A DNA stretch of 64,000 bases from an uncultured bacterium (GTDB lineage Bacteria > Verrucomicrobiota > Lentisphaeria > Victivallales > UBA1829). The notes under the pieces were generated by a model. The model was not told the origin of the DNA. It worked only from the letters and a program-made list of their open reading frames with translations, and searched no databases. The stretch covers positions 62,001 through 126,000 of the forward strand of contig CACYZF010000008.1 of the NCBI GenBank assembly GCA_902778895.1, written 5' to 3'. This document shows positions 915 to 29,768 of the stretch, piece after piece (position 1 is the stretch's first letter; every line of letters starts with the position of its first letter). Position numbers and translations under genes: made by a program.

Positions 915-3017
915 TTATTTTTTCAAGAATTCCGACATCTGCCCGTAGCCACTTACAAAAGCCCCTTTCTGTGCTCTTGTGAGAGCCACATATAGGAGAC
1001 ACTTTTCCGCTGTTATTGTTTCCTGTTCGCTTATTGCGTCACTATGATCTATTGCTGAAGCCAATGGAATGATACGCTTATTTGCCGCGACAACAAATAC
1101 ATATTGGAATTCCAGCCCCTTGACGCGATGCATGGTCGCTACGCGGATGCCATCCAATCCTCGATCATCTGCTTTGTTTCCTTTTATTTCATAACAGCGG
1201 ATTCCTTTTGCCGTAAACTGCGAGATATAATCATCCAAAAGCTTGTGCGTCCTCGCGACGACACAGATATTTTTCGCGGAAACTCCACCATCAACAAGTC
1301 CTTTGATTTCCTTCAAAACTGAATCAAATTCCTCATTCGCGTTGGAGAAAGAGTGTACTTGCGGAGGATCACCATGTGTCAGAGATTGACAACGGTCTCC
1401 CGTATCGAAATCATCATCAAGGTCGTCAAAAGAGATGCCGTTCAAAAGCGCAAAAGCCGCCTTCCGTATTTCTTCCGTTGTGCGATAGTTGATACGGAGA
1501 ATACTACTACGGCCTCTGACATTAATGCCGCACTTCGACAAGGATGCTTTGTTCTTATAGATCCGCTGATGAGCATCTCCAACAATAAAGATATCGTTCT
1601 CGTGTTCTTCTCCCGCAATCGCACGGAGAAGACGGAATCCATTAACGCTGAGATCCTGACCTTCGTCAACAATCACATGCTTATATCTGGTCTCGGAATT
1701 GGACTTCAAAAGAAGCATCCGGCATTCATACATCGCAGTATTGATATCCCGAACCTGTCGTTCTTTCATCATGTTCTGATAGGTTTCAAAAACCTTCCAA
1801 ATCTGCATGCGTTTCTTTCTGTCAAGCCTTGTGCCTCGTCCCGTTCTTGTTGCTTTGATATACTTTTCGAGGGAAAAAGCTTCCTGGGCAACAACGATTC
1901 TATTATATTCGTCCTCATAAAAGCTTGCAGGGAATTCGTCGCCAAGGTCATTTGCAGCCACAACATCTTCCCAGATTTTTTGAGTTTTATCATCATAAAT
2001 AATCTCTGCAGAATAACCATGCTCTCGCAAAAATTGCGCCACCCAGGCATCAAGATTGATAACATCTATTCTGCGGAGTTCATCCATCGTGCAGATTTTC
2101 CGCAGGTTATCCTTTATGTCCGAAGCAAGATTCGCTGTAAAGGTTGTAAAAAGAATGCGCTCTTTGTCTTTTAAACCTCCAGCCAGCTGTTTTGCGCGAT
2201 GCATTGCCACGACGGTCTTTCCGGTTCCTGCACCACCGAGAACGCGGGCCGCTCCGGAATAATTCTTGTTTACGATCTTTCTCTGTGTCGGATGCAGAAA
2301 AACGCGCCATTTCTCCAGTGGTTCCGCCATAATACGCCGCAATTCTTCCTCTCCTTCGACCACAACAAAAGATTTCAATGTTTCCGGGCGGTTCAGAGCT
2401 TCGGCAAGATTGCTGGATACCGTTTCAGTTTTCTGTTCCTGTTGTACCAAAGCCTTTACTTCACTCAAAGGGAATCCCTCGGCGAGCCACGAAAGGGATT
2501 CAAAAGCGTCTGCTGGGAAGCTGTTTTTATGGGAAAAGAACTCCTGTGCATCATGAATGCCTCTTGCAAAAGGAATCAATTCTTTCGGCAAACCAAGTTC
2601 CAGCAGATCTTTATCCGATATCTTCGAGAATAGCATATTGTCTTGTGCTGATGGAACAATCTGGGGTGCAGCGACCACGTCATAGACCTGTATAGCACCA
2701 GTCAAAGGATTGACCTCGCACTTTTTATTCCTTGCCCATGCATAGGCCTTGTCATGATGGTCTACCCAAAGAAGCAGATAAACGCCCGTTGCCTGCTGTC
2801 GGACAACAATCCCTCTGTAGGTATCATCAATACGGACTGAGTAGATTTTCCTGTCCTGACAAGCGTTGAGTTTTTCATAATTGATTCCAGGAGATGTGGG
2901 ATTATTCCGGAGTTTGTTCATGAACTCCGTAACCTTTCCCTGAATCTGTCTCGGCAATGCTACAAGAGCAGTCAAAAAGGTTTCGGATATCGCGAGTTTA
3001 GGCGGTTGTTCGTTCAT
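915..3017 (-). CDS. UvrD/Rep-type helicase with N-terminal RelE-like domain
   Basis: A superfamily 1 DNA helicase of 700 residues. Residues 1-100 resemble a RelE/YoeB-type toxin fold (short helices, then KIYSVRIDDTYRGIVV and LLLWVDHHDKAYAWA). The helicase part has Walker A GGAGTGKT near residue 260, Walker B VDEGQDL near 452 and motif VI YVALTRAQKG close to the C-terminus. GAGGAGG sits 8 bases before ATG 3017, which fixes the start. RelE-like plus UvrD fusions are known from defence islands, where the N-terminal part may bind RNA or ribosomes or may only be a structural adaptor; this is inference. It follows the DruE-like gene after 156 bases and precedes the DUF932 gene by 21 bases. Confidence 0.85.
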   Translation of the reverse strand: MNEQPPKLAISETFLTALVALPRQIQGKVTEFMNKLRNNPTSPGINYEKLNACQDRKIYSVRIDDTYRGIVVRQQATGVYLLLWVDHHDKAYAWARNKKCEVNPLTGAIQVYDVVAAPQIVPSAQDNMLFSKISDKDLLELGLPKELIPFARGIHDAQEFFSHKNSFPADAFESLSWLAEGFPLSEVKALVQQEQKTETVSSNLAEALNRPETLKSFVVVEGEEELRRIMAEPLEKWRVFLHPTQRKIVNKNYSGAARVLGGAGTGKTVVAMHRAKQLAGGLKDKERILFTTFTANLASDIKDNLRKICTMDELRRIDVINLDAWVAQFLREHGYSAEIIYDDKTQKIWEDVVAANDLGDEFPASFYEDEYNRIVVAQEAFSLEKYIKATRTGRGTRLDRKKRMQIWKVFETYQNMMKERQVRDINTAMYECRMLLLKSNSETRYKHVIVDEGQDLSVNGFRLLRAIAGEEHENDIFIVGDAHQRIYKNKASLSKCGINVRGRSSILRINYRTTEEIRKAAFALLNGISFDDLDDDFDTGDRCQSLTHGDPPQVHSFSNANEEFDSVLKEIKGLVDGGVSAKNICVVARTHKLLDDYISQFTAKGIRCYEIKGNKADDRGLDGIRVATMHRVKGLEFQYVFVVAANKRIIPLASAIDHSDAISEQETITAEKCLLYVALTRAQKGAFVSGYGQMSEFLKK

Positions 3018-3173
3018 CTGTTATACCTCCTCGGAAAGGAACCATCATCTATTGACTTTTCTGACGAATGGCTCTACTGTTATGGGTTAAGAATCGTCGG
3101 ATTGGATTAATTCATGTTTTTCGTAGGAAATCTCCTCTCTATGGATGGTTTTATTATCAATATCTGTCTTGTT

Positions 3174-6100
3174 TCATGGATTATTGAAAAACGCGTCGAT
3201 CTCGTCAACGCTCGTGAATATCTTCCATCCTGTTTTTTCCGCTTTTTCGCGGTCTGCCTGCTGAGCTTCCGTCATATATCCTATCTTGCGTTTTACCCAT
3301 GCAAGTTCAATTTCAGCGATAACCATACCTGATTCATCTACGAGTTCGTACCCAACCTCTTCTGGGGGTATAATACTCTTTTCCTCTAAAACATCAACGA
3401 GCTTACCCGTATCGTCATCAAAAATCATTCCACGGATAGCAACCCAGCCATCATTGGAACCAGTGGTGAGCGTGTCTTCCGCAGAGCTATCCGTCTGTCC
3501 ATAAGGTAAAGCTACATAAGCGTGACTGTCAAGCCCAGATTTGCAAATCGCAACAAAGCTCTTATTGAACTGCATTACATTAAAGAATTGCCAGAATCCG
3601 TTCCATTCCTGCTCATATTTATCCGTCCTTCTGTCCGTCCGGTCATCCAACAACGCAACAACAGATACAGGGGCATTCTTATCTGTTTTCATTCGTGCAA
3701 CAAGTATTCCTGCGTAAGCATAAAAGTGCGTATCGCTGCTTCTCGGGATCCATGTGCCGAAGAATGTGCCGGGGTGAACGAATATATCATCCGAAAAATG
3801 CACTTGGCTGTTTATTTTTCCGACAGTATCAATCCAATCCAAAAATGCAAGATTGTTTGTGGTTTTTGTCGGTTCCAGAAGGGAAAGAGAATATGCTCTT
3901 GCTTGTGTTTCAAACAGCGTTTCAGCATTATCCATATCCAGATAACGCATCAAAAGCTCAAAAGCTAGCATCTTTCCTGGCTTCAGTTCGTCCGCATTCC
4001 CAATGGTTGGCTGGTACATCTTTGCACCGGACGGCATTTTCTCGGGGGCAAGTGTGGAAGTGGCATATTCTCCCTGAGACTGGAAAACAGACTGCACATC
4101 CCTCCAACTCAAAGTCCAGACGTGATATCTTCCACTTCTACGAATGGCTTCTCGCTTAAGAGTATCATCCGCAACCTTGTCTTTATGATAGATGAATCCG
4201 TCTGTAAAAATGGCGACAGGCAGTTTGTCCTGCTTTCCTATCTGTCTGATAACGAAATCAGGTTTGCATTGAACAGATACTCCCTGCGTCGGACCCAATG
4301 TCACCTGCGGCTCAATTTCCCAAGAAAATTCATTGACCTTCAGAATGTAGCCCTCTTTATCATTGACAAGAGATTTGGATATCTCAATTTTGCGTTTTTC
4401 ATTTCCCATCTGGGCGAGAGCTTCTACAAAACGTCGTTCCAATTCACTATCAAACAAAGAGTTTACAGAAACATTTCCCAATCTTTCTATCTTAGTCAGA
4501 TTGTTTTTCCCGCTTAAGATAGATTTCAGTATGCGAATCGCCGTACTACGCGAAATATTACCGATATTCTGACTTTGGCGGTAAGCATACAAGCAGTGAT
4601 AGCATCCATCTTTTTTCGGGTCTTCCTTGCAGGAACACTGTTCTAGTTTCTGAAGCGCCCGTTCAAAAATGTCTATCAGAGACCCCTGTTCATTCATCAG
4701 CTGTTTCAGATAGCCCGTGCCACCGGGGACAGAATCATAAATAACAAGATACTGCTTCCTATAGTCCGCATCCGGTACAGGTACTTCGCTGACCGTAGCG
4801 CGAAGATGATCCACATTTCCGAAGTACTCCTTCATGCCGAGCATAAAAGCCGCAGCGAAGGATTCTGTTCTGATGGTGGAGGCATCCATTGTTGTGGCCG
4901 GAATCAAGATGCGTAAAGCCTCCGTAGCAAACTCCCTATAAAGGAAAAGGCACTCCACGAACGGATCATTATTAAACGCCTGCATTTTACGGGTCTTACA
5001 ATAGAAAGTATGGACCTCCTTGCCGTGCTCCGGCTGAATCTTTCCACAGTATTTGCATATTTTGAATCCCTTTCGGACATCCTCAACGCCAGATACTGTC
5101 ATCTTTTCGCCGACCAAATCACTTTCACCGAAGTTGATCTCCCGGAGTGTAGCTTTCTTAACAAACTCATACCCGAAAGCAAAATCTTCATTGTCCATCT
5201 CATAGGCGCAGGCGATGTCATGATCTTCATCGACGTCAACCAGAAGCTGTTTGCAATAGAACACATTGGAGCGGTCGTCGCTTTCATCGGAAATAAGGCT
5301 TTTGGTATAATCCATGTTGGAGTAGACCATTTGCACCTTGAGCATGTTTCGAACTTGTCCTGCATCCGCCCATGCAGGGCTTCCGCACTGGGGACAACAT
5401 GCCGTGTCTTTTCCGGCTTCTTCAATTTGAGCATGGGAACAGTTCGGGCATAGTCTCCATTTTGCCGATTGAGCACTTGTCAAATCCACTTGGTCGATGG
5501 TGAGTTTCCTGCCGTCCACATAGAAACTGTTGTTCGGCGCAAATTCACTGATTGCAGCAGATGCCGAGCGGCTGTACTCGTATACGGATTTCCTGAATCT
5601 GTTATTGGTCTGCGGAGTCCCCGTCTCATCATCTTTACGGTACAGTATCGCTTTTAAGACTATGCCAGACTCCGGGAAAGCATAATTCGGCAGAAGACCT
5701 TCATCCGAAAGGAAATTGAAGATATCTTTCTTGTTGATCTCCTTAACTACATTCATAAGGGCAGACTGTTCAGCCTTCAGTTCTTTTATTTCCTCATCAT
5801 AAGAAATGTCCCTGGGCCTTGCTTCCAGTTCCTTTACCATATCTTTCAGTAACTTAATGCTTTGCGACAGGGAATCCTTCTGCTTTTTCAGCGCTCTGAA
5901 GGCTTCTAGTATGCGGATGTGCATCGGGCTCTCTTTCAGCTTGTTGCCCTGTGCAAAGACGCGCAATTCATTCCTTACCGTATCATCAAGGTGCTGAGCA
6001 AAGAGTTGGATAAACGAGTTCAGAAGGTGAGACAGATTGTTCTGTACATAATGCAGGAAATTGAACGGGAAAACATCAATTGGGTGACTGTCCAGTTTTC

Positions 6101-9100
6101 CAAGAACTACGCTTACATTTTTTGGGATGGACTGTTCCGTCGCTCCTCGCTTTACCCAGGAATCCATGCAATAAGCCACAAACTGGCGTTCCAATACAGC
6201 AGATGCTTTCAGGAATATCTTAGGCGGCACCACATTGCCTTCCATCATGTCCAACGGATCAGCGTAGAAATACAAATCGTGCGGTCTTGCAGCGGCAATT
6301 GCAAGTGTCAACGCATTGCCATCTTTACGGCCAGCTCGTCCTGTTCGCTGCAAAAACTGCGACTGTGCCGGAGGCATACTGCAAAGGATAACAGTCGAAA
6401 GGTCTCCGATATCAATTCCCATTTCCAGCGTAGGCGTACAAGATAACACATTCGGATCCCACACCTGTTTCGTATCTTTTTTGCGCTTGAAATCAACTTC
6501 AAGGGACTCCCGGTCATCACGCTCCAGAAGTCCTGTATGCTCTTTGGCATTGATGCGGACGATGTCGCCTGTTGAGAACAGTTTCCCATAATAATCCAAC
6601 TGAGCGGAATTGCTCTCTTCAAATTTTCCGGCGCAGGCACTGCGGATGCATGCCGCATTATTCCAGAAAAGCTTATTTTCTGCGGCTACAGCATGAGTAA
6701 TTCCGCAGGCATCGCATTTCATTTGGATAACATCATCCGAGATAAAAACTCTGTTCTTGTCAAGGGCGTAAATCGTATATTCTGCCGTAGCAGGAATACT
6801 GACAACAATCCCGTCCTTCACAAGCTCCTCAAGAATGATACGGCTGATGGCCGTGTATGTTGATGAATCGATCAGCGTAAGCGTCTCATTGCAGCAAGCG
6901 GTAATCCAGTCTACATATTTTTTCCCTGACTCAGTGTCAAAGCTAATGATTCTTCGGTTTTGTCCTACGGGACGGTATATAAAACGAGGTGTATTTCTTC
7001 CCGACTGTCTGCCTGGCATCCAGCTTACTCTGTCATTGGAAAGCAGGTAAGTATCTCCATTTCCTTTGAGAAAGAGTGTGAACGCATCATCCATGAAAGC
7101 GCCGTTCTGCGCCATAAGCTTCAAGTACCCCGCCACCATCTGCGCGAAGCGCTCTGCTCTGATACTGTCCAATCCTCCAATCTCGTTGGTTACACGCTCA
7201 TGGACAGCATTGGAAACCCTTGTGATAGTTTCCACAGGGAACGACAGGCAGGAACAGCCCGATTTCTCTAAGGTGCGACCAATACGGCTGGTAAGGCCGT
7301 ATTCCAGCATGATTTCATAGGAGATGCGCTTTTCAATATCTCCCATCAGCTTTTTTGCCCTTGCATCTTTTCCGAACTTGCGCTTTTGGGTCATATCCTC
7401 ATAGGCGCTCATCCATGTCATGTTGGGAGCGATGAAGAAGCTGACAAAACTCTCGTCATCCAAATGGGCATGCCAGTACTTGATAAAGCCGTTGGTGAAA
7501 TCCGCAAGGGAAAGACCGGCTCCGCCATCCTGAACATAATGCTGGACTGCTGTCCTGAACCCGAATCTCCATGTGCGGGCATTGAAGAATCCGGCACGAT
7601 GAGCGGCATCCTGAACATTATCGGAGAATGCCAGCGTTTTCTTGTCATCATTGAATCTTGAGGCAAAGAGCTGAGAAAGTTCCGTGCTGATCTCCGTCGC
7701 GCTTCTCAGTCCCATAAGGGAAAGACCGCGCTTCGATCCGCAGAATGGACAGATAAACTGTTTGTTGTCTTTTGAGCCTGTTGTCGGTATCGGACTGGGC
7801 AGAACAACATCCACCATGTCGGAACCGCAGTTGTCGCATCTTGCGGACGAATCGTCTCCACTTTTCACCCGCAAACAGTCAGGACAAATATGCCCTGGGA
7901 CTACTCCCCATGGATAATTATTATCATGTTTGTGAGGGAACATCATGACAATCTTGTCATCCGCCTTGAAGAAACGGTTATAGAAAGTCTCCAGACTGTT
8001 TATCGTTGCATTTCCACGCTCACTGAGGATGGACGTCCAGCCCGTTGCGCCGCAGTCCCTGCAGTTGACCACGGGAAGATACTGCTTCGCCTGTTTGGCA
8101 TTCAGATCATGGGCGATGGCGTATGTCAACTCGTTTCCTGAAACTTTGGCTACCAGACGGCGCAGTTCCCTCATCCAAAGCTGTACCTGAACATTCAGGA
8201 ACGGTCGCAAACTGTCCGGTTTCCCCGTTCTGGCATGGGAAATCAGAGCAAGCAAAGCATTGACCGCCGCTTCGGCATCTTCCAGTTCCTTAAGCTGCGG
8301 ATAATTTACTTCCAGTTCTTCGATTATGTTCTGGACCTGATGATAATTGCCTTTGATCAGGGTAATCATTGCCTGCATAAAGCTGTGGTGCATCAGGTGT
8401 TCACCGAGAGCTATCCGTCCATCGGGCATGGTCACATCCACGTCGGACATGTCCGTCCAAGCGGACGCGGCTGCCTTAAGATAAGCATTCTCATCGTCCT
8501 GCCCCACAAGCTTGACAAGTCCGGCAACCTGCTCCGCAGTCGGCATGGTGAAGTCCGTAATCTCCTGCCCCTCGAAGAACTCGTCAGGGGACAGGCGGTC
8601 TTCCGTTACGATTGCATCGTCCTCGAACGGTTCTCCAAATATCTCCTCGGCATATTGAAGGATGCTCTTGCCGTTATCCTTGGACCCCATGGTCGCGGAT
8701 GTGCCGATACAGCAAAGAAACCCACCCGGAGTAAACAGGCGCGATTTCAGTCTGCGGAGCAGGCACGCAAGGTCTGTACCTTGCGCGCCGTCAAAAGTAT
8801 GCAGTTCATCGACTGCGATGTATTTCAATGTATCCGGTTTGTTTTCTTTCCACAGAGCCGCATCCTTCGGACGGACGAGCAGATAATCCAGCATCTTGTA
8901 GTTCGTCATCAGGATGTCCGGAGGATTCCCCAGCATGGTTTCGTGATCGGAAATAACGTTATCCTCGCTCATCAGACGGCAGGGATTCTGTTCATGTCCG
9001 CCGACGTACATACCGGCAGTCACATTGCCTCGGAGTTCCGGGCTTGTCCAGATAAGTTCCGCGATTCGTTTCGCCTGATCAGACGCCAACGCGTTCATTG

Positions 9101-9491
9101 GATAGATGATGAGCGCCTTGATGCCGGGTTCGCCTCTGTGCTGATAGCAGTATTCCAGGATGGGGTACAGGAAGCACTCAGTCTTACCGGAACCAGTGCC
9201 GGTCGCGATAAGCGTTGATCGGCCATCGTCTCCCGTGAGCCGGGTGAATGCGGTCTGCTGATGAACATAGGGAATGTAGGCGGGATGAATTGCGTCAAAG
9301 CATGTCGGCATCGACTCGGCAACACGGAAAGGCAACCGCACGGAAACATAAGGCTCATGATAGACCGAATCCCTGGTTTTCAGCAGCCTTTTGATGGACC
9401 CCTTGAAGGGCGCGTTGGTCATCGGGAACGTGGTTTCGATATAGTCCCCGATGCCTTTCTCCAATTGCTTTGCGAGTATGGATGGTAACAT
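3174..9491 (-). CDS. Giant DEAD/DEAH helicase with DUF1998 end, DruE-like
   Basis: A 2105-residue superfamily 2 helicase, the size reported for Druantia DruE and about twice DISARM DrmA. Walker A ATGTGSGKTE lies near residues 96-105 and the DEAH-box variant VDELH near 224. The second RecA lobe has TLEMGIDIGDL and QRTGRAGRKDGN. Several CxxC pairs (CRDCG, CPDC, CDNCG, CPFCG, CPNC, CPQCG) suggest zinc ribbons in the middle. The C-terminal part carries the DUF1998/MZB signature DSVPGGTGYLKQL followed by CSCKEDPKKDGCYHCLYA. The start at 9491 has AAGGAGAG upstream. The 5' end is duplicated at 11356-11430. It probably translocates on DNA during anti-phage defence; DrmA/DrmB fusion is the alternative label. 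Confidence 0.88.
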   Translation of the reverse strand: MLPSILAKQLEKGIGDYIETTFPMTNAPFKGSIKRLLKTRDSVYHEPYVSVRLPFRVAESMPTCFDAIHPAYIPYVHQQTAFTRLTGDDGRSTLIATGTGSGKTECFLYPILEYCYQHRGEPGIKALIIYPMNALASDQAKRIAELIWTSPELRGNVTAGMYVGGHEQNPCRLMSEDNVISDHETMLGNPPDILMTNYKMLDYLLVRPKDAALWKENKPDTLKYIAVDELHTFDGAQGTDLACLLRRLKSRLFTPGGFLCCIGTSATMGSKDNGKSILQYAEEIFGEPFEDDAIVTEDRLSPDEFFEGQEITDFTMPTAEQVAGLVKLVGQDDENAYLKAAASAWTDMSDVDVTMPDGRIALGEHLMHHSFMQAMITLIKGNYHQVQNIIEELEVNYPQLKELEDAEAAVNALLALISHARTGKPDSLRPFLNVQVQLWMRELRRLVAKVSGNELTYAIAHDLNAKQAKQYLPVVNCRDCGATGWTSILSERGNATINSLETFYNRFFKADDKIVMMFPHKHDNNYPWGVVPGHICPDCLRVKSGDDSSARCDNCGSDMVDVVLPSPIPTTGSKDNKQFICPFCGSKRGLSLMGLRSATEISTELSQLFASRFNDDKKTLAFSDNVQDAAHRAGFFNARTWRFGFRTAVQHYVQDGGAGLSLADFTNGFIKYWHAHLDDESFVSFFIAPNMTWMSAYEDMTQKRKFGKDARAKKLMGDIEKRISYEIMLEYGLTSRIGRTLEKSGCSCLSFPVETITRVSNAVHERVTNEIGGLDSIRAERFAQMVAGYLKLMAQNGAFMDDAFTLFLKGNGDTYLLSNDRVSWMPGRQSGRNTPRFIYRPVGQNRRIISFDTESGKKYVDWITACCNETLTLIDSSTYTAISRIILEELVKDGIVVSIPATAEYTIYALDKNRVFISDDVIQMKCDACGITHAVAAENKLFWNNAACIRSACAGKFEESNSAQLDYYGKLFSTGDIVRINAKEHTGLLERDDRESLEVDFKRKKDTKQVWDPNVLSCTPTLEMGIDIGDLSTVILCSMPPAQSQFLQRTGRAGRKDGNALTLAIAAARPHDLYFYADPLDMMEGNVVPPKIFLKASAVLERQFVAYCMDSWVKRGATEQSIPKNVSVVLGKLDSHPIDVFPFNFLHYVQNNLSHLLNSFIQLFAQHLDDTVRNELRVFAQGNKLKESPMHIRILEAFRALKKQKDSLSQSIKLLKDMVKELEARPRDISYDEEIKELKAEQSALMNVVKEINKKDIFNFLSDEGLLPNYAFPESGIVLKAILYRKDDETGTPQTNNRFRKSVYEYSRSASAAISEFAPNNSFYVDGRKLTIDQVDLTSAQSAKWRLCPNCSHAQIEEAGKDTACCPQCGSPAWADAGQVRNMLKVQMVYSNMDYTKSLISDESDDRSNVFYCKQLLVDVDEDHDIACAYEMDNEDFAFGYEFVKKATLREINFGESDLVGEKMTVSGVEDVRKGFKICKYCGKIQPEHGKEVHTFYCKTRKMQAFNNDPFVECLFLYREFATEALRILIPATTMDASTIRTESFAAAFMLGMKEYFGNVDHLRATVSEVPVPDADYRKQYLVIYDSVPGGTGYLKQLMNEQGSLIDIFERALQKLEQCSCKEDPKKDGCYHCLYAYRQSQNIGNISRSTAIRILKSILSGKNNLTKIERLGNVSVNSLFDSELERRFVEALAQMGNEKRKIEISKSLVNDKEGYILKVNEFSWEIEPQVTLGPTQGVSVQCKPDFVIRQIGKQDKLPVAIFTDGFIYHKDKVADDTLKREAIRRSGRYHVWTLSWRDVQSVFQSQGEYATSTLAPEKMPSGAKMYQPTIGNADELKPGKMLAFELLMRYLDMDNAETLFETQARAYSLSLLEPTKTTNNLAFLDWIDTVGKINSQVHFSDDIFVHPGTFFGTWIPRSSDTHFYAYAGILVARMKTDKNAPVSVVALLDDRTDRRTDKYEQEWNGFWQFFNVMQFNKSFVAICKSGLDSHAYVALPYGQTDSSAEDTLTTGSNDGWVAIRGMIFDDDTGKLVDVLEEKSIIPPEEVGYELVDESGMVIAEIELAWVKRKIGYMTEAQQADREKAEKTGWKIFTSVDEIDAFFNNP

Positions 9492-9548
9492 ACCGCCTGC
9501 TCTCCTTAGTTTATATTCATGTTGGAGCCTGTTTAAACCTCATTTGGA

Positions 9549-9598
9549 TTCACTTAATTCTCTTAAAATCCGGTTTTGCTTTAAGTGGATTAAGTGAA
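9549..9598. promoter_or_regulatory. Inverted repeat with TTAAGTG half-sites before the DruE-like gene
   Basis: The 10-base arms TTCACTTAAT (9549-9558) and ATTAAGTGAA (9589-9598) are perfect inverted repeats 30 bases apart. A third TTAAGTG lies just inside the right arm, at 9581-9587. The element sits in the 123-base gap between the AlbA_2 stop and the DruE-like start. It could be an operator for an island regulator or a weak bidirectional terminator. No T-tract follows it closely, which favours a binding site. Confidence 0.4.
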
Positions 9599-9614
9599 TT
9601 GGGAAGCCCCATGA

Positions 9615-11333
9615 TCACTTGTTTAATGCCCATTGGCGCTGACGACCTTCATGCCCGACAACCCTGATAATGTTCTGTTTCCTTAATGATGTAAGAAGAT
9701 TTCCAATTTTTTGTTCTTTTTGCATGTCGTTAAGAGAATCTGGCAGTTTCTCGATCAGAAGATCCCGTATTTGTTTTCTTGTCGCACGACCATATTGTTT
9801 AAGATATTTCACAATAAAATCGCGATAGTATTGATCATCAAAAGCTCTGTTTTTGATATATGTTGCTTCCTCTTTGATCGTCTTTGCGACCTCTGCCGAA
9901 AAATACAGGTTGTTTGCTCTTCCTTCAACCAGATGATGCTTTCTCAGGAATGCAATCGCATCCTTCGACATATTTTTTCCATGACTCTTTTGCACCTGGT
10001 CAAGAAGAAAAACCGTTTCCAAATCAAGCTCGGGATGTTCGAAAAGGATATAGGTATAGCGTTCATCCAAAACTTTCCCATAGACCTTCACGGAAACCTG
10101 ATTCTCTGTCTGCAGATCGTAATCCGGCATGGGGAAGAATTTTTCTTTTTGTATGCGGTAAACCTTTTTGATTCCGCTTGTCGCGGTGTCGATCATATGA
10201 AACTTCACCATTGCATCCGCCAGAAGCTGATTGCGGTAAAACGGCGGATTATATGTTTTCTGAAGGACCGTTTCCACGCTCTGAGGCAGAAATTCTCCGG
10301 GATTGGAGATGCTGATACAGTCGTCCTCTTCATTAACATAAATGCGACCGCCAATCTGATAGTTGGAATGGGCAATGCAGTTGTTCATGAGTTCGCGCAA
10401 AAGCCATGTGTCGTACTGTTGTGTTTCTTTGGGAAACAACGACAATTGATCTGGCATATAGCGATATGTCAGGATACGAATATGGGAAAACATCTTTTCC
10501 GTTACCGTCAGAAATGGAATTCCGGCGATCTCATAGTCCTTGACCGTTCCGTCAGGCGCAATCAGCCGCCACATCATACTGGGCGCACTCTCAAACAGAT
10601 TGTCATATTCCGGGTTGCCAAGAAGAAGCATGGCGGCATTGGTAACTCTTCCCTCTGTCATAAGCTTGAGTTTCGTAAGGAATTCCTCATCGGTCAGCCC
10701 GTCCACCTCTTCCGAAATATGAGGCTGGTTCATCTTTTCCTTGTACTTCGTCCGGGCAAAAGCAATCGCATCCTTATCCAAATGATCGATTGACGCACCC
10801 GGCAGGATCTGTCTTGACCAGTCTCTCCGTTGCTGATTCCGTATCATATCGATTTTATATTGCTGCAGAGGGACAAGACTATCCCCGTTGCGGGCATAGT
10901 ATCTCGTTTTCCATTCCGTAGGCATACCGGCAACAGCCGCCGGGATCTTGAACATAAGAACCCTTCGGGCCTGTCCTTCGTACACGGGATATAATTCGAT
11001 TACATCAAGAAATGTCATCCCATCGGTCGTTTCCTTGCTGATCTCGTACTTGAATCTCTCAATCAATGCGGAATCCCCCTGCTTAAATGATGATCCGACA
11101 GGATATTTCTGCTTCTGTTCGCTCACACCGAGGATCAACCAGCCATATTGCTGATTTTTTAAATTTGCTTCATTGCTTATGGCGGAGAAATACTGTCCGA
11201 TCTTATCTTCGGAATACTGCCCCTTTGCCTCCTTGAACTCGACGATCTCATGTTCCCAGCGTTCCATGAGAGTGACAAGCAAATCATAATACTCCGCGTT
11301 CGGAGATGTTTTGTCATATACAAATTCGTTCAT
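9615..11333 (-). CDS. AlbA_2 (Schlafen-type) and HATPase-like protein
   Basis: A 572-residue protein. Residues 20-150 match the AlbA_2 / Schlafen core, with HEIVEFKEAKGQ, GWLILGVSE and RYYARNGDSLVPL. The middle resembles the RecG-like HATPase_c_4 region that often follows AlbA_2 (ELMNNCIAHSNYQIGGRIYV, then ISISNPGEFLP). The C-terminal 100 residues look like a winged helix (ATRKQIRDLLIEKLPDSL). Such proteins are usually called transcriptional regulators or ATP-binding proteins, and some occur in defence clusters. GGAGG stands 6 bases before ATG 11333. The gene lies between the Gabija-like pair and the DruE-like gene, just after a truncated copy of the 5' end of the latter, so it appears to have been swapped into this slot. 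Confidence 0.85.
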   Translation of the reverse strand: MNEFVYDKTSPNAEYYDLLVTLMERWEHEIVEFKEAKGQYSEDKIGQYFSAISNEANLKNQQYGWLILGVSEQKQKYPVGSSFKQGDSALIERFKYEISKETTDGMTFLDVIELYPVYEGQARRVLMFKIPAAVAGMPTEWKTRYYARNGDSLVPLQQYKIDMIRNQQRRDWSRQILPGASIDHLDKDAIAFARTKYKEKMNQPHISEEVDGLTDEEFLTKLKLMTEGRVTNAAMLLLGNPEYDNLFESAPSMMWRLIAPDGTVKDYEIAGIPFLTVTEKMFSHIRILTYRYMPDQLSLFPKETQQYDTWLLRELMNNCIAHSNYQIGGRIYVNEEDDCISISNPGEFLPQSVETVLQKTYNPPFYRNQLLADAMVKFHMIDTATSGIKKVYRIQKEKFFPMPDYDLQTENQVSVKVYGKVLDERYTYILFEHPELDLETVFLLDQVQKSHGKNMSKDAIAFLRKHHLVEGRANNLYFSAEVAKTIKEEATYIKNRAFDDQYYRDFIVKYLKQYGRATRKQIRDLLIEKLPDSLNDMQKEQKIGNLLTSLRKQNIIRVVGHEGRQRQWALNK

Positions 11334-11430
11334 TTTGTACCTCCGTATTTCGTTTCGTCATCGGGAACGTCGTCTCAATATAATCCCCGATGCCCTTTTC
11401 CAATTGTTTTGCAAGTATGGATGGTAACAT
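11314..11430 (-). pseudogene. Truncated 5' end of a second druE-like gene
   Basis: From ATG 11430, with GAGGAG upstream, the frame encodes the same first 25 residues as the DruE-like protein (MLPSILAKQLEKGIGD, then YIETTFPMT). It then diverges and stops after 38 codons, inside the start of the AlbA_2 gene. Over the 75 shared bases (11356-11430 against 9417-9491) I count nine differences, all at third codon positions and all silent. The copy therefore descends from a functional but diverged druE allele rather than from a recent local duplication. It marks a recombination edge. Confidence 0.85.
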
Positions 11431-11463
11431 GCCGTCAGTTCTCCTCAATATCAAACTGCATTG

Positions 11464-12588
11464 TTATTTCGTATAGGAGTCTTTCAACTTTTTAAAGATG
11501 GAAGCCTTGATTAAATATAGATCCCCCTTGCTTCTAGTCAATGCCACATATAGTTTATTAATTGTTGACAAAGATATTCTCGCAACAGAAAAGTCTTCCT
11601 TGTCCAGCCCTTCAAATTGATCCGTTAGTATGACACACGCCACATCCACGGTATCTCCTTTGGAATAGGACCAATTCATGGCATTAAATGAATAATTAGC
11701 TGCCGAGTTATACACTAACTTTTGAATTGATGGATTCTGCAGGATGGCATCTATTTGCTCTTCTGCAAGCCATGTAATACCTCCCTGGTTAATCCCTGTC
11801 GACTCAATGTTGATGCCCAGTTTTTCTCTTACGAATGCGCAAATAGCCTCCGGGCATCTTCTTGATCTATTCAGAGTCGTTTCATCCACAGAATAGTTGT
11901 CTTGTTTCAATTTAGCCACATAGTCTGTGTATCCCACATCCGCCTTTTTATTCTTGAAAGGCCTCCCTGTATTATTGATTCCCGATACAGAATGTTGGTA
12001 ATAATCTCCCACAAGGAGAACGCAGCTTAAGAGATTTGACAGTGTATCAATTAAATCGTAATCATGTTCTCTGAAGTCTTGAAATTCATCTATGAGCACC
12101 TGGTCGAAAAACAGGTTCAACCGAGCTGCCGCCCTCTTAATTAACGATTCTCTTCCTCGCTTTACATACACGACTAGTTCGGATATTGTCGCACAGTAAT
12201 ACTGGTTTCCCTTCGTGATATAATGTCCGAGTTGATCTTTCCTTTTGTATTTCGGATTAGCGACAACGCCGCCGTAACCGTTTTCTATTCTTTGGGGCGG
12301 TGGATCGACAGTCGTGATCCCTTTACTCCGGAAGTCTTGATTATCGAAAAAATCTGCGATTGTTGGCTCGTAGGGACAAATGAAGTGCCGGTATACAAAC
12401 GAGTCAAACGTCATAACAGTCGTTCGTTCGGGAATACTTCCATGCGCATCTATCAATTCTTTTCTGATGTTGTGGATATTCTCATGGGTAAATGCCAAAA
12501 TCAGATTCCGCTTTTGCGGATCGATGCTGTGGCAAATATGGTATGTTTTCCCCGCGCCCGCAACTGCAAGAATTACCCGCTTATCCAT
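11464..12588 (-). CDS. Short UvrD-type helicase, GajB-like
   Basis: A 374-residue superfamily 1 helicase. Walker A is AVAGAGKTYH at residues 8-17, Walker B is LIDEFQDF near 167 with GDYYQHSVSG after it, and motif VI is LYVALTRSKGDLYLI near 350. It is shorter than Gabija GajB (close to 500 residues) and appears to lack much of the accessory subdomains. The start overlaps the 3' end of the OLD nuclease gene by 16 bases, so the two are translationally coupled, the usual layout of gajA-gajB. In Gabija, GajB senses DNA ends and licenses the GajA nuclease; the same role here is inferred. Confidence 0.82.
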   Translation of the reverse strand: MDKRVILAVAGAGKTYHICHSIDPQKRNLILAFTHENIHNIRKELIDAHGSIPERTTVMTFDSFVYRHFICPYEPTIADFFDNQDFRSKGITTVDPPPQRIENGYGGVVANPKYKRKDQLGHYITKGNQYYCATISELVVYVKRGRESLIKRAAARLNLFFDQVLIDEFQDFREHDYDLIDTLSNLLSCVLLVGDYYQHSVSGINNTGRPFKNKKADVGYTDYVAKLKQDNYSVDETTLNRSRRCPEAICAFVREKLGINIESTGINQGGITWLAEEQIDAILQNPSIQKLVYNSAANYSFNAMNWSYSKGDTVDVACVILTDQFEGLDKEDFSVARISLSTINKLYVALTRSKGDLYLIKASIFKKLKDSYTK

Positions 12589-14153
12589 CTGATCGCTTCC
12601 TTTACATATTGAGGGGTTGCATATTCTTGGGAGGACATAAGCATAAAGTAGGCAACATCCACCTTGTTATTTAGCATTCTCCCAAGAACAGGACCATAAT
12701 CATTGCCATGGAACAAATACGGGGTATTTGGCTTGACTTTAATCTGCTTGTCCAATAGGACTTGATTTTCCTTATAAATGCAGACTTCCCAAGTCCAGTC
12801 CTGAATATCTCTAGCCATAAAAACATGTTGCAGATTATTGGCTCCGTTGAAAGCGTTCGCCTCGTCAATCCTTTCCTGTTTTCCGTCGTTGTCGGTTATC
12901 ACAGCTATTTTTTTGTTGGTCGCTTTCGCTATCGCGAGATAATGGTGAAAAGAGATACCGTTGCAGGAGATTACCGTCACTTCATCTTCCTCAATCGTTT
13001 TTCCCGTCAGTCTTTGATAGAAATAGGGAACCAGTAAAAACTCCGTCGCACCCTCCACCAATATGGCTTTCTTGGAAAGCAGCAACTGCAAAAACGCATT
13101 ATCATCTGCCTTTACAAAGAAATTCGCTACTTTGGGATTTACAGTTTGTAATGATTTTGCGCCTTCCTCCGTAATCCATAGAACATTGTTCAAATTCAGT
13201 CTGCTGGCGATCATATTGCTGTGCGTGGCAACGATGATCTGCGATGTTTCCTGTTGGTCGGATATCTCCTGAAGCATTTTCCGCAGCGTAGTAAAACTCA
13301 AATGATTTTCCGGTTCTTCCATCATGATGACACTCACCCCGCTTCCCCGGTCGAGCGCAATCTTTGTTTTAATCAGGCTCTCCATGCCGCTTCCCCGGTT
13401 TTCGAGCGGAATAGAGTTCTCATAAACGGATAAAACAGTCTCTAATACCACTTTTTTGCCGTCGATGCCGAACTTTCTTTTTTCATCAATCGGCGGCAAC
13501 CCGGTTTGTTCAAATGCCTGATCCAATTTGTCGCGGAATGTATTCTTGGCTCTTATTCGCGTACTTTCATCATATTTATTTGCAAACAACGTTCTATTGT
13601 AGTAGTTGAATGATGAAACCGCACCATTGTTCGTTGTATCGATGGAAATAAAGTTGATCGGACGCTTTACCATCTGATAAGGTCTGTTGGCAAAGGTCGT
13701 CCAAGTCATGGAATAATACTCATACGGAATTCGTCCTTCATTGATTATCTCATCCAGACCATCGCCGATTTCTTCATCAAATTTACATTCAAAACGGATG
13801 CCGTATTTTTCAGGCTGCGGTTTGCGCACTCCATACACTTCTCCATAAAAGTACTCCGCATTGTTCTGATCCGGATCAAGTTCCAATTCGACCTCAATCA
13901 CGATTCTGGGAAGAGTCTTGATGCCGGGATGTTCCTGAAACGCCTTGACCACATCTACATTGAAAAGATCCCGCAGGATTGCCTTGTCAGCATTTCTGTA
14001 CTGTTGATTCAGGACAGTGCGCAAGGCATCCAGAACCGTGCTCTTTCCTGCTTCGTTCTCTCCAACAAGAATATTCATGTGTTCGTTAAAGTCCATCTGA
14101 AGGGAAACAAACTTCTTGAACCCCTCAATGATCAGATGCTTGATGTGATTCAT
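12573..14153 (-). CDS. OLD-family ATPase-TOPRIM nuclease, GajA-like
   Basis: A 526-residue ABC-type ATPase fused to a TOPRIM nuclease. Walker A GENEAGKST is at residues 32-40, Walker B with catalytic Glu is IMMEEPENH near 278, and the switch histidine is in IVATHSNM. TOPRIM acidic residues are seen in LVEGATE near 368 and ITDNDGK near 420. Length and order fit class 2 OLD proteins and GajA of Gabija. It overlaps the methyltransferase gene by 4 bases (ATGA) and the UvrD-type gene by 16. Predicted job: cutting phage DNA when nucleotide levels or DNA ends signal infection. PARIS AriA is another OLD-like relative, but a UvrD partner favours Gabija. Confidence 0.87.
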   Translation of the reverse strand: MNHIKHLIIEGFKKFVSLQMDFNEHMNILVGENEAGKSTVLDALRTVLNQQYRNADKAILRDLFNVDVVKAFQEHPGIKTLPRIVIEVELELDPDQNNAEYFYGEVYGVRKPQPEKYGIRFECKFDEEIGDGLDEIINEGRIPYEYYSMTWTTFANRPYQMVKRPINFISIDTTNNGAVSSFNYYNRTLFANKYDESTRIRAKNTFRDKLDQAFEQTGLPPIDEKRKFGIDGKKVVLETVLSVYENSIPLENRGSGMESLIKTKIALDRGSGVSVIMMEEPENHLSFTTLRKMLQEISDQQETSQIIVATHSNMIASRLNLNNVLWITEEGAKSLQTVNPKVANFFVKADDNAFLQLLLSKKAILVEGATEFLLVPYFYQRLTGKTIEEDEVTVISCNGISFHHYLAIAKATNKKIAVITDNDGKQERIDEANAFNGANNLQHVFMARDIQDWTWEVCIYKENQVLLDKQIKVKPNTPYLFHGNDYGPVLGRMLNNKVDVAYFMLMSSQEYATPQYVKEAIRWISG

Positions 14154-17100
14154 GATAATTCCTCCTTTTTCCCATACTTCTTCTCGAAGAATTTCCAGGC
14201 TGTTTCGTAATCCTGCTCACGGTCGCAACGGTCGAACGGTGCGACATATTCTATGGTACGCTCCACAGGCCCACCGGGCATGGTGTCGTCGGTAATGGTG
14301 CGATAGAACTTCTTCCCTGCAGGAGCGCCTTTGATACCATTTTCCCATTCTTTGCGTTCAAAGCCTACACCTGAAAGTCCTTTGTTGTTGGTAAAAACAA
14401 TTCTTCCATTACTGTCATACCAAGTATCTTTTTCATATTCATTCAGAACAGGGAATTGCAGCCTGAACATTGTTTTTAATTCGTCTAAAGTAATTCCCAA
14501 TGCAAATGAACACAAAACATCTAATTCTACTAAAGCCTGCCTACGTTCATAATCCGTTCTTAATGGAGATGTATAGCACCAATTCTCAATTAAGCCACTA
14601 TATTTCTTATGCGAAAGACGGTTGTCTTTCTTTGTCCAGCTAAGAACATTTTCTTTAAAACACTTTTGCATATCTTTCCATATGTTCGAAAAATATGAAT
14701 TAACACAGTTCAACAATAATGCCCGCGCTTGAATATCTGAAGAATATTTTGATTTAGCCATCGGCAATCTCAATATGGTGTCTGAATACAAATTGGATTT
14801 TCCTAAAATCTTAATGAAAAAATCAAATGGCAAAGAAATAAACAGTCCTGCGCTAAGCACAAGAAGCTTTGTGTCATCAAATTCACATCCTATCAGACCA
14901 TTTGTGTGTGCTGTTTGCGGTGGCACCAAAGCAGAAATCAATGTCCTCTCACCATCAATATTAAGCATTTTTCTTGAAACAAGCCTATATTTTTGATTAG
15001 TAGGTTGTTTGGAAAAATTGCAGGGAATCCTTTTTGTATACTCATCCATACCGCAAATTGGGATATAATTACATCTTTGCAAATAGTCTGTTCGTATTTC
15101 GCATAAATCAATACAGTCAAATGCTCTATGAGTACTACAATTCCTTTGAGATGCTTTGAATAACGGATTACCCAACCCAATATGTGGACCTGAATAAATC
15201 AAATCGAGTGCGCTTTCCGGAAAATGTACATCTCTCTTTATTGTTTTGTCCTCCTGTGCAACCGTTTCATGCCACATTTCAGATATAAACAGCGAATTAC
15301 CTAGAGAATAATATCTATCACTGTTTCTTGTAAAGCAACGAAGTATATCAATAAATGGCTGACCTTGTAGAACGGGAAGACGGGCACCATGCCAATCTCT
15401 ATTCTCCTCCTCACTGTCATCAAAAATCTCAGAGAACAGTTTAAGAGTTTCATCTGTGACTATTATAACTCTTTGTCTGCTTCCTTGAGTATTCCAAATA
15501 TTGTTTTCATCTTTTATCCCCTTCAATTCTGTGTCATTCGACATATCAAAGCTCTCATCAATTGTACTGGGATAAAAAAGATTTGATATTGACATAAAAC
15601 TTGAACGTTCTTTCTTCGAATATATATTAATCGAATAGACTTCGCGATTAGCAACTTCCGAAAACAATTTCAGTTCATTTCTAAATTGAAAATGATAAAC
15701 TAACTTTTTATATTGCTGTTTACGAAAAGCCTCAGCTTTTGGATCATTATAAATACCATCTGGGTGTAATAATCCGGCAGCACCTTTTTCTGAAAGAATG
15801 CTCCATGCTTGTGGTAAAAAACACTTGTATAGGTTTGTCTGTTGGCCAGACAACATCTCGTAATTATGAACAGATGAATAGTAATTAATCTGTCCCGTTT
15901 GTTCTATATACGAGGTAATATATTCTTTTTCTGCATCATGATTCCTTAATGTTTCATTTCTCAACGAGGATGTCGCTGTAGCACTTAGTTTTTTTACAGA
16001 GAATGATGGATTATAATCAGATAGTATTCCTTGTTCCTCCCATGTTAATTTTATCCATGGCGGATTGCCAAGAACAAGGTCAAACCCACCACGCTCTGCA
16101 AACAAATCGGCGAATTCAAGTTCCCAATGCATGAAGTGGTTATGTTCCGCAATTTCGCGCACCAAAGCAAGCCTCGGGAACAGGGTACAGAGGTTGTCGA
16201 TATCCACCGTATTCTGTTCGGGGAAGAGGTCTCGAATCTTTCCGATGATCTCCTCACGCTCCGTGGGGAACAGGCTCAGCTGTTCGTCTTCCATGAGGTT
16301 TTTGCCTTTTGTGGTGAAAGTCCCAACAAGGATCAGGTTCAGATCATTCAGAAACTCGCTGCGGCTTGGCAGCAAATCCGCTTTGTCGATCGGCCAAAAC
16401 CAAAGCGCGCACCAGTAGTCCATGGCAAACTTCAATCTTGCATACGGTCCTGCATTCTTCATGTGTTCGGACTTATACAACTTGGAGAGAATCTGGTCTT
16501 TCTGTCGAATCGTCGTATGGGAATCGGTGGCTGTATCGCTGTATCCGTAAACGGAAAGCCGATCCTGCGTCTCCTGCTCCACTGTCTGCCGCAGCTTGAT
16601 CTGATTGTTCCACAGGTCATCAATGACCTCGGAAAGCCCGCGCAGAGTTTCAATATCGCTGAGGTTATACGGCGCTGTGAACTTCTTGTTCCATTCCGTC
16701 ATTGCCTTGATGTTTTTTGGTTCCAGCGATTTGATGACCTTATCGGTATAACTGCACATGCCGGGATCGCCCAGAAGGAAGTGATAGATCTGAGCATTCC
16801 CACGCCGTTTCTTTCGTTCCGTTCCCAGCGGCACACGCTCCGGCGCATTTTCATACCAATGCAGCCCCTTGGATGTGGCTGTCAGGGCTGCTTCCTGGTA
16901 ACATTGACGGCGTGCTCCGATCAGGGAGTTGCCGTTCACGAGCTGCGTACCGAACCACGGTACAAAACCGCCCTCATAGATCGTGTTAAGCCACAGGGAT
17001 ACTTCCGCCAGCTCCACGGCGATAGGATTCAGGTCGATGCCGTAGACATTGCGGTCGGCGATATACATCTTGACCTTTTGGAGTTCCTGCAGGCGCTTTT

Positions 17101-18946
17101 CAGCGGGGATCATTTCCCCCTGTTCTTTCTGTTTTCTATCAAGATATGCTTCCGCGATCTGGTTAATAGCTTCATTCAAGAATGCCGCACTGCCCATAGC
17201 CGGTTCGCAGATGGTCAGGTGAAGAATCTCGTCGGCTTTTTTGTCCTCCAGCAGTTCCTTCAGCGCATACTTTACCAGGCACTTCGTCAATACTTCCGGC
17301 GTGTAGTAGGAGGCGGATTTTTCCCGTTCACGTCCGGCAAGACGGTAGATGAAGGTGCCTTTTTCGTATTTGCGGAGCTGTCCCCTCCTGTATCTCCCGT
17401 CAGGATCGTCCTTTTCGTAACGGACACGTTCATCCTCGGTGTACTGATCCAATTCTTCTTCCGCAACGAAGTATCCGACATCCAGCTCGTTGAAACTGTC
17501 CCCTGCCCGCTTTACCTCAAACAGGGTATGTTCCGCGATGAAGCCTCTGTAGGAAAGCAGCGCCTCATAAACGGATCCCATCTGGTTGATTCCGAGGTTC
17601 GCATAGGAGATACGACCTCGACGGTCGTTCCGTCGGCCGGTTTCACGTGTCAGGCTCATGAGATCGATGATGCGCAGCATGACGGAATTGCGCAGTTTCG
17701 CCCCCGTAATCATTTTTGTGTATTCCGGGTCGAAGATGTGTGCCTTCAGGGGAGCAATCACAAACATGTCGTGGAGGCTTTCCTCCTGCGAGTATTTCAG
17801 GATTTCCTCCTCGGTCGCCGGATAGCCGTTATAGATCAGGTCATACAGCTTGGAAAGAGTTTCATGCAGATAGTAACCGCTGCCGACTTCCGTAACCTCA
17901 TCGCGGATGTCATCCGCGATGTCACGCAGGCTTTCCAGCGAGTAACCTGTCAGGTAGGCCTGTGCCTTGATTGGCGCATAGCCTAATTCCGGACGAGCCT
18001 CAATGAAGAGCACGAAGAGCATGCGGTACATATACCGCAGACACTCAATGGTCAGCTGCCCGGCATCCACAGGATCGGCATTTAGATCACGTCCTTGGCG
18101 AGTCGCCATGTCATACAGCACTTCATTGCCGAGAAGCTCAATACTCTCACGCAGGGCATATTTCAGATCCTGCGATACGCCCGCGGCATGTTTCTGGGAG
18201 TTGGCGTCAAGCTCGTCCAGCAAGGCCGTTCCTTCCTCCGGACAAAGACTGGTGCGGTGAAGCAGAACCGCCATCGCCTGCAAGGTGGATTCTTCGTGAC
18301 GGCTGAATATCTCTTCCAGTTCAAATTGCAGATACCGCTTCTCATTCCATTTATTTCGGTCGATCAGCGCAATCTGGTTCATACCGATCAGGATGATGAA
18401 GCGCGGCGGCTCCGCCTGCCCAAACAAAATCTTTGTAACAAGATCTTCATTCGGAATCGTGGTCAGGCTTTCGGGGGAAACCGCATTCAGTCCTTCCTCG
18501 CCGATTCCCTGAGCGGCGAAACAGTATTTATCCAGGATGGCCGCCTCTTTGTCCTCCGAGGTCGCAAGCAGAACCCATAGCAAGGGCGCACCGTTCGGCT
18601 TTTTCAGTTCCAGATATACGGGAACCTTCGTCGTGTCATCAATATCGACCCACTCCGGAGCTGCCTCCGGATATCCGAGAGCCGACAGGTATATATCCGC
18701 AAGGGTGCATATGTTCGCCAATGTCTGCGTATCGAGCTTTGAACGAAGGAATCTGTCATGGATGGGATAATACTGCCGTGCGGCATCCCTCAGGAGCGAC
18801 CACGGAGTGCGCACACCTTCACCGTCCTTCGCATCCGCTCTCCATTTTGAAATGGTTTCGGACGCGTTCTCCTCGAAGATGGAGGCGAAATAGTGGTTGG
18901 TATAGTATTCGTTCTGGTTTGTAATACCGGTCAAATCCATGCTCAT
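14150..18946 (-). CDS. Large adenine-specific DNA methyltransferase, DrmMI/PglX-like
   Basis: A 1598-residue class I N6-adenine methyltransferase. Motif I is CEPAMGSAAFL near residue 582, followed by YGIDLNPIAVELAEVSLWLN. Catalytic motif IV is LGNPPW near 960. The long N-terminal and C-terminal parts probably serve target recognition, as in DISARM DrmMI, BREX PglX and type IIG enzymes. I see no clear PD-(D/E)XK nuclease motif, so it likely marks self DNA rather than cutting. Its start overlaps the SNF2 stop by 4 bases and its end overlaps the OLD nuclease gene by 4. The stretch 14,500-16,000 is locally more A+T rich, which may mark an exchanged target-recognition region. Confidence 0.88.
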   Translation of the reverse strand: MSMDLTGITNQNEYYTNHYFASIFEENASETISKWRADAKDGEGVRTPWSLLRDAARQYYPIHDRFLRSKLDTQTLANICTLADIYLSALGYPEAAPEWVDIDDTTKVPVYLELKKPNGAPLLWVLLATSEDKEAAILDKYCFAAQGIGEEGLNAVSPESLTTIPNEDLVTKILFGQAEPPRFIILIGMNQIALIDRNKWNEKRYLQFELEEIFSRHEESTLQAMAVLLHRTSLCPEEGTALLDELDANSQKHAAGVSQDLKYALRESIELLGNEVLYDMATRQGRDLNADPVDAGQLTIECLRYMYRMLFVLFIEARPELGYAPIKAQAYLTGYSLESLRDIADDIRDEVTEVGSGYYLHETLSKLYDLIYNGYPATEEEILKYSQEESLHDMFVIAPLKAHIFDPEYTKMITGAKLRNSVMLRIIDLMSLTRETGRRNDRRGRISYANLGINQMGSVYEALLSYRGFIAEHTLFEVKRAGDSFNELDVGYFVAEEELDQYTEDERVRYEKDDPDGRYRRGQLRKYEKGTFIYRLAGREREKSASYYTPEVLTKCLVKYALKELLEDKKADEILHLTICEPAMGSAAFLNEAINQIAEAYLDRKQKEQGEMIPAEKRLQELQKVKMYIADRNVYGIDLNPIAVELAEVSLWLNTIYEGGFVPWFGTQLVNGNSLIGARRQCYQEAALTATSKGLHWYENAPERVPLGTERKKRRGNAQIYHFLLGDPGMCSYTDKVIKSLEPKNIKAMTEWNKKFTAPYNLSDIETLRGLSEVIDDLWNNQIKLRQTVEQETQDRLSVYGYSDTATDSHTTIRQKDQILSKLYKSEHMKNAGPYARLKFAMDYWCALWFWPIDKADLLPSRSEFLNDLNLILVGTFTTKGKNLMEDEQLSLFPTEREEIIGKIRDLFPEQNTVDIDNLCTLFPRLALVREIAEHNHFMHWELEFADLFAERGGFDLVLGNPPWIKLTWEEQGILSDYNPSFSVKKLSATATSSLRNETLRNHDAEKEYITSYIEQTGQINYYSSVHNYEMLSGQQTNLYKCFLPQAWSILSEKGAAGLLHPDGIYNDPKAEAFRKQQYKKLVYHFQFRNELKLFSEVANREVYSINIYSKKERSSFMSISNLFYPSTIDESFDMSNDTELKGIKDENNIWNTQGSRQRVIIVTDETLKLFSEIFDDSEEENRDWHGARLPVLQGQPFIDILRCFTRNSDRYYSLGNSLFISEMWHETVAQEDKTIKRDVHFPESALDLIYSGPHIGLGNPLFKASQRNCSTHRAFDCIDLCEIRTDYLQRCNYIPICGMDEYTKRIPCNFSKQPTNQKYRLVSRKMLNIDGERTLISALVPPQTAHTNGLIGCEFDDTKLLVLSAGLFISLPFDFFIKILGKSNLYSDTILRLPMAKSKYSSDIQARALLLNCVNSYFSNIWKDMQKCFKENVLSWTKKDNRLSHKKYSGLIENWCYTSPLRTDYERRQALVELDVLCSFALGITLDELKTMFRLQFPVLNEYEKDTWYDSNGRIVFTNNKGLSGVGFERKEWENGIKGAPAGKKFYRTITDDTMPGGPVERTIEYVAPFDRCDREQDYETAWKFFEKKYGKKEELS

Positions 18947-29693: not shown

Positions 29694-29768
29694 TGGTAGC
29701 GGGGGTTGGAATCGAACCAACGGCCTCCAGGTTATGAGCCTGACGAGCTACCTCTGCTCTACCCCGCA
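29694..29768 (-). tRNA. Initiator tRNA-fMet (anticodon CAT)
   Basis: The cloverleaf is complete: acceptor TGCGGGG/CCCCGCT, D-arm GAGC...GCTC, anticodon stem CAGG-CTCATAA-CCTG, T-arm GTTGG-TTCGATT-CCAAC, and an encoded CCA end. Bases 1 and 72 are both T and do not pair, and the D-stem has A11-T24. Both are hallmarks of initiator tRNA and rule against elongator Met or Ile2. The anticodon stem has A-T at the first of the usual three G-C pairs, an unusual but tolerated variant. A promoter and a terminator flank it, so it is a single-gene transcript. It is also the likely integration site of the island. Confidence 0.93.

Follow-up and report, generated by a model that had tools for sequence, protein, structure and literature searches.

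The window (the whole 64,000-nt stretch of DNA analysed) carries a 25-codon copy of the start of armC, a helicase gene of a multi-gene defence operon. We conclude that this relic is probably the beginning of another armC allele, joined to the apparent tail of another armB. Two ARMADA Type II operons that differed in the cargo of one and the same slot would have recombined illegitimately and been left end to end.

A diverged copy of the armC start

Sequence comparison revealed that codons 1–25 of armC (9417–9491) are duplicated on the same strand in front of the AlbA_2 gene (Table 1), all 25 residues being identical. The copy differs from the start of the window's own armC at 9 of 75 bases, each difference is silent, and the match ends at codon 26. 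Together with ~15 nt upstream, which include the ribosome-binding site, the pair forms the longest direct repeat in positions 5000–16000 (92 nt, 86% identity; the runner-up has 26 nt). Under a simple substitution model (synonymous fraction 0.24), nine silent changes out of nine have a probability of ~2.6e-6 without selection. Thus, the relic very likely diverged while it belonged to a working gene. The initial annotation had described this repeat as a piece of a different, functional allele, left by recombination between related loci; codon comparison confirms its nine silent differences, which support the different allele, and recombination accounts for the copy.

The identical 25 residues are common to eight loci of our set, the window included. 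At the nucleotide level the relic is nearest to L120 and L037 (68/75 bases) and the window's own armC to L003 and L120 (69/75), with 66/75 between relic and own armC; a comparison of alleles over 75 bases carries little signal. Searching plasmids with the relic DNA gave no match, and searching phages with the armC start as a protein gave one weak match only.

The joint creates a short ORF whose end overlaps the AlbA_2 start (11333) by 20 nt. Its last 13 codons are an out-of-frame reading of an armB-like tail (see below) and of the AlbA_2 start. The same 38-aa ORF is present in the protein database (P0058) on a contig of 7,202 bases, the window contig having at least 126,000 bases; an assembly error of the window contig alone is therefore unlikely. 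Apart from possibly leading ribosomes to the AlbA_2 start, the relic is likely without function.

Table 1. Features of the operon, its slot cargo and the joint in the window
Feature	Position	Strand	Remark
armA: SNF2/BrxHII-DrmD-like helicase	18943..21765	-	
armB: methyltransferase, left flank of slot	14150..18946	-	
Cargo: GajA-like OLD/TOPRIM ATPase, 526 aa	12573..14153	-	
Cargo: GajB-like helicase, 374 aa	11464..12588	-	
Ribosome-binding region before relic	11431..11445	-	11/15 bases as before armC
Relic: first 25 codons of diverged armC allele	11356..11430	-	Repeat and silent differences
Short ORF made by the joint: 38 codons and stop	11314..11430	-	ORF list, codon comparison
Apparent tail of second armB, stop overlapping AlbA_2 start (ATGA)	11330..11353	-	19/24 bases as in L003
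Cargo: SLFN_AlbA_2 + HATPase_c_4 protein, 572 aa	9615..11333	-	89% to L003
Inverted repeat between AlbA_2 and armC	9548..9599	-	Counterpart in L003
armC: YprA/DruE-like helicase, 2105 aa, right flank of slot	3174..9491	-	
armD: UvrD/GajB-like helicase with predicted RelE-like N-terminal domain	915..3017	-	

The operon fits ARMADA Type II

With its middle genes set aside, the window has the gene order of ARMADA Type II, which the available sections of PMC12458937 give as a BrxHII-like helicase, a PglX-like methyltransferase, a YprA helicase closest to Druantia, and a UvrD helicase, this last gene having a RelE-like N-terminal domain. The likeness covers gene order, the helicase and methyltransferase families and the N-terminus of armD. 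An E. coli plasmid record (L119) has the same gene order. The profile matches of the window's armB are mainly to type IIG and DrmMI models, those to PglX being weak. armC scores well against DruE profiles and matches the Zn-binding domain of MrfA. When the first 240 residues of armD were modelled (pLDDT 86.2), the best matches were the toxins RelE, YoeB and YafQ, and a RelE-like domain is predicted there, as for ARMADA Type II. Gene order and the RelE-like armD are the reason why we name the genes armA, armB, armC and armD.

Druantia type III consists of druH-druE, and the large helicase of the window resembles it in scoring well against DruE profiles. Unlike in that system, ARMADA genes are found here, and no DruH appears beside armC among the best 25 matches per protein for the seven cluster proteins scanned. 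The operon fits ARMADA Type II, and the gene that the initial annotation had called druE fits armC instead. The two genes next to armB form an adjacent Gabija pair (PADLOC GajA, 2.2e-93, and GajB, 9e-44; Pfam OLD-like_TOPRIM and UvrD).

A cargo slot between armB and armC

We compared the borders of the operon across loci, 50 of which came from an armC scan of genome contigs and the others from further genomes, IMG/VR and one plasmid record; distant short matches were mostly left out. For the armB–armC border, 52 loci were counted in which the armB end and the armC start are both readable, after removal of the duplicates L149 (identical to L046 by sequence), L124 (to L020), L125 (to L038) and L185 (to L024), L124 and L125 having identical matches. 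Outside the 52 are L026 and L027, which have no armC start, and loci with no readable armB end, such as L044, L047 and L052; L187 was counted without a check by eye.

Cargo is accommodated at the armB–armC border, whereas the neighbouring borders are closed. This slot is empty (<150 nt) in 19 loci and filled (474 to 9,791 nt) in 33. The gap between armA and armB is 0–32 nt in 35/35 measurable loci and that between armC and armD at most 330 nt in 40/40 (both in a set of 56 loci). Almost all slot ORFs longer than 150 aa (52 of 53 in a set of 45 loci) are co-directional with the operon.

Slot cargo is varied. It comprises Gabija-like GajAB (window, L010, L025, L048), AlbA_2 (window, L003 by its 89% identity, L028), GmrSD_N (L015, L036, L041, L128), AAA_21 (L015, L025), an SMODS/AGS_C cyclase (L035), Abi_2 (L046), the PADLOC candidate PDC-M49A (L012), a PDDEXK_9 ATPase (L019) and SIR2_2 (L152). 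A Pfam scan of 31 proteins of the other loci (one of them, in L044, outside the 52) left 12 with no family at E 0.001.

Gabija-like genes were also seen outside the slot. In L030 the GajAB pair (58% and 55%) is found immediately downstream of armD (18482–21159), the slot border there being empty, and L018 and L038 likewise have GajA-like matches downstream of armD.

An armB-like tail follows the relic

In L003, armB directly abuts AlbA_2: the AlbA_2 ribosome-binding site lies within the armB end GAGAAGTACGGAGGTGTAAAATGA, and the armB stop codon shares an ATGA with the AlbA_2 start codon. In the window, the 24-base stretch leading to the ATGA of AlbA_2, ACGAAATACGGAGGTACAAAATGA, is identical to this armB end at 19 positions. 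As a background we took, from the same set of loci, 512 further ATGA sites that carry a ribosome-binding motif; when these were matched to all armB ends, two came to 18 identical bases and none got as far as 19. A KYGG-type tail with the ATGA overlap is likewise found at the armB ends of L024 and L049. The changeover from armC' to armB'' was placed by eye within 11351–11358, with at most 3–4 shared bases.

The bases after codon 25 of the relic therefore look like the last codons of a second armB, an assignment that covers only ~20 bases and rests on one strong match. With this tail directly after the relic, the window order, armB-GajAB-[armC' start][armB'' tail]-AlbA_2-armC, appears to be a fusion of two filled slots, one behind the other. 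The initial annotation had the cargo simply inserted at the start of its druE; it overlooked the apparent second armB, and the tail points to two joined filled slots instead.

Parental arrangements and a second joint

Both halves of the window arrangement exist separately. GajAB stands directly before armC in L010 and L048, where the full gene right after GajB, foreseen by the initial annotation, is found; the order armB-AlbA_2-armC is that of L003. The window has both arrangements in tandem, with the relic between them.

A joint of the same kind was observed in L012, with the order armB, cargo, armC start, ~190 nt from the 3′ end of armB, a further small cargo ORF and armC. Its copy of the armC start matches at 27 of 29 alignment columns, with one base missing; the armB 3′ end follows within a few bases and has an internal deletion. 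Breakpoints differ from those of the window, and L012 has an independent joint with the same armC-then-armB order. This order was found in only 2 of the 33 filled slots.

Could AlbA_2 alone have been inserted near the start of armC after GajAB, the second armC start being supplied later or with it, and no second armB taking part? The existence of the L010 and L048 arrangement is in keeping with this, as are the 33 nt between GajB and the relic, much like the position of armC in those two loci, and the L003-like pairing of AlbA_2 with armC. A plain insertion, however, would leave both armC parts as the same allele, whereas nine silent differences separate them, and it explains neither the armB-like tail before AlbA_2 nor the armC-then-armB order of L012. 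We regard it as distinctly unlikely.

Other loci hold partial arrangements. In L044 (Akkermansiaceae), a 54-codon copy of the armC start (2906–3067; 96% over 138 nt) precedes a DUF4143 ATPase, with no recognisable armB beside it. L152 contains an orphan slot (9517–12039) made of an armA fragment, the last 56 armB codons, a SIR2_2 gene and ~129 armC codons; the rest of the operon is absent within 13 kb, and the slot adjoins genes that by eye resemble integrases. A cassette of this kind, which has its two borders but no intact operon around it, would suit a circle with armB end, cargo and armC start that integrated through a single crossover at the start of armC. Circle integration predicts exactly the order seen in the window (armC start, joint, armB end, cargo, full armC), but its two arms, 75 nt of armC and ~20 nt of armB, offer little length for homologous recombination, and we consider this origin highly improbable. 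The chance that selection keeps the short ORF as a functional leader peptide or a translational coupler controlling AlbA_2 or armC is very remote: its frame is intact with no amino-acid change in 25 codons, its ribosome-binding site is kept and it overlaps AlbA_2, but the intact relic occurs in the window alone among 33 filled slots (L012 having a decayed copy), L003 has the same cargo gene with no short ORF, and the last 13 codons are armB-like tail and AlbA_2 start out of frame.

Two filled slots joined by illegitimate recombination thus remain our preferred reading. It keeps from the initial annotation the other allele, the recombination and the L010 and L048 states, and gives up the gene name and the simple insertion.

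In protein P0034, the armC start is in frame with an ATP-binding region ~60 residues further on, an arrangement not seen in that form in the window. We dropped a census of short proteins as scar evidence. The first 45 residues of armC returned 67 short proteins, many of which begin like armC and carry foreign tails, but armA starts gave as many (72) and armD starts gave 1, so the armC count provides no support. At least 6 of the 67 are plain armC frameshifts. The tail of one census protein (P0040) is presumably adapter-derived.

Possible exchange near the slot borders

Signals of cargo exchange were sought in 50-nt bins of pairwise identity. Between L005 and L011, the last 1.5 kb of armB are 88–100% identical until the final 100 nt (76 and 70%); the slot is empty in the one and 1.7 kb long in the other, and armC starts at 84% and continues at 92–98% over the next 250 nt. 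This pattern suggests exchange near the slot borders and is probably a clean cargo swap. L014 and L036 have a similar drop of identity across the last 200 nt of armB. L017 and L020 differ strongly at the armB 3′ end with both slots empty, so armB divergence alone is no proof of a cargo swap; since in seven of the ten compared pairs the border is likewise unclear, owing to general divergence or to the variable armB part, this evidence for cargo exchange is suggestive only.

Residues ~975–1500 of armB are diverged in 44 of 45 pairs (10 loci), all but L005/L011, and this hides recombination endpoints. The region is likely the target-recognition region, exchanged independently. L005 and L011 share it (94–97% at the nucleotide level); L008 and L011 are 42–57% identical there, though 88–97% over the first 900 alignment columns.

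Sliding identity to 19 loci made no homologous-recombination endpoint visible, the window being L003-like on both sides, and the armB 3′ end singles out no donor. Neither this sliding identity nor the armB profiles (10 loci, 45 pairs) nor the armB 3′ ends gave a signal for the order of cargo arrival; GajAB may have come into an L003-like operon, or AlbA_2-armC into a GajAB operon.

Among 387 genomes drawn from the phylum of the window, a close armC was found only in the window genome. The other 13 with matches have distant relatives (at most 47% identity over the matched part). The closest relatives are in Lachnospiraceae and Selenomonadales assemblies, and several other close ones come from ruminants. 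With the close armC confined to one of these 387 genomes and the nearest relatives in those two groups, the operon likely arrived by horizontal transfer.

A possible route for stacking cargo

We propose that recombination within the end regions of armB and armC would normally swap the cargo. When two allelic ARMADA Type II operons meet, each with a different cargo in the armB–armC slot, homology in armB or armC would align the incoming DNA with the resident operon at one end. At the opposite end, joining would take place at ~3 bases that armC' codons 25–27 share with the last armB codons. A clean swap would have homology on both sides and leave no scar; a misjoined exchange would keep both cargos and the joint. 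Such a mechanism would be homology-facilitated illegitimate recombination, described in the available sections of PMC3240628 as an experimental process with one homologous and one illegitimate end. Here, in contrast, we infer the pairing and joining steps from a natural joint, in which the few-base end is seen and the homologous end is not located.

More tentatively, the armB–armC border may be a recombinase-free cassette site. The conserved last armB and first armC codons would then act as homology arms, ordinary recombination could spread any defence gene flanked by them among distant bacteria, and exchanges that misjoin would stack cassettes and leave armC'::armB'' scars.

Relation to known systems

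Defence genes embedded in other defence operons are already known; Payne et al. 2024 is reportedly cited on them. In the available sections of PMC11411939 and PMC12255303, TgvAB and DarTG2, respectively, are embedded in type I RM operons, and the latter source calls the hsdS-hsdR site a potential recombination hotspot. A Campylobacter hypervariable region with a type I RM system is described in the corresponding parts of PMC5183652. The window resembles the TgvAB and DarTG2 cases in having defence genes between genes of another defence operon, and differs in that the host operon is ARMADA and that scars and parental states suggest how two cargos came to share a slot. PMC12458937, in the sections available, calls the ARMADA Type II gene order strict, whereas 33 of our 52 loci have cargo at the armB–armC border; the words 'Gabija' and 'accessory' gave no hit in its text, and the 'cargo' passages listed concern mobile elements. 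No description of cargo in the armB–armC slot, or of scars at that border, was found in the literature searched.

The route by which defence genes enter other defence operons has been poorly documented so far. This one border shows the parental arrangements, empty sites, what is probably a clean swap, and two stacking joints, and the route therefore becomes testable. If the reading of the scar is true, it shows how bacteria stack immune genes. A practical rule for finding new defence genes follows: read what sits between armB and armC.

Repeats and RNA genes

An inverted repeat lies between AlbA_2 and armC both in the window and in L003 (9905–10000), with both arms changed (TTAAGTG/CACTTAA versus TTAAGAG/CTCTTAA). 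Its RNA fold has a z-score of –1.17 in the window, which is not significant, and –3.57 in L003; it may possibly be an operator or attenuator of the AlbA_2 cargo. The sole RNA gene found in the window is a tRNA-Met (CAT) gene at 29694–29768. Short tandem repeats stand beside slot cargo in L028 (~8030–8110), L049 (~3090–3270) and L025 (~9880–9990), of the types CTTGACGAAAGA, CTTGACAAAACG and GTCAGCAAAGCTGAC.
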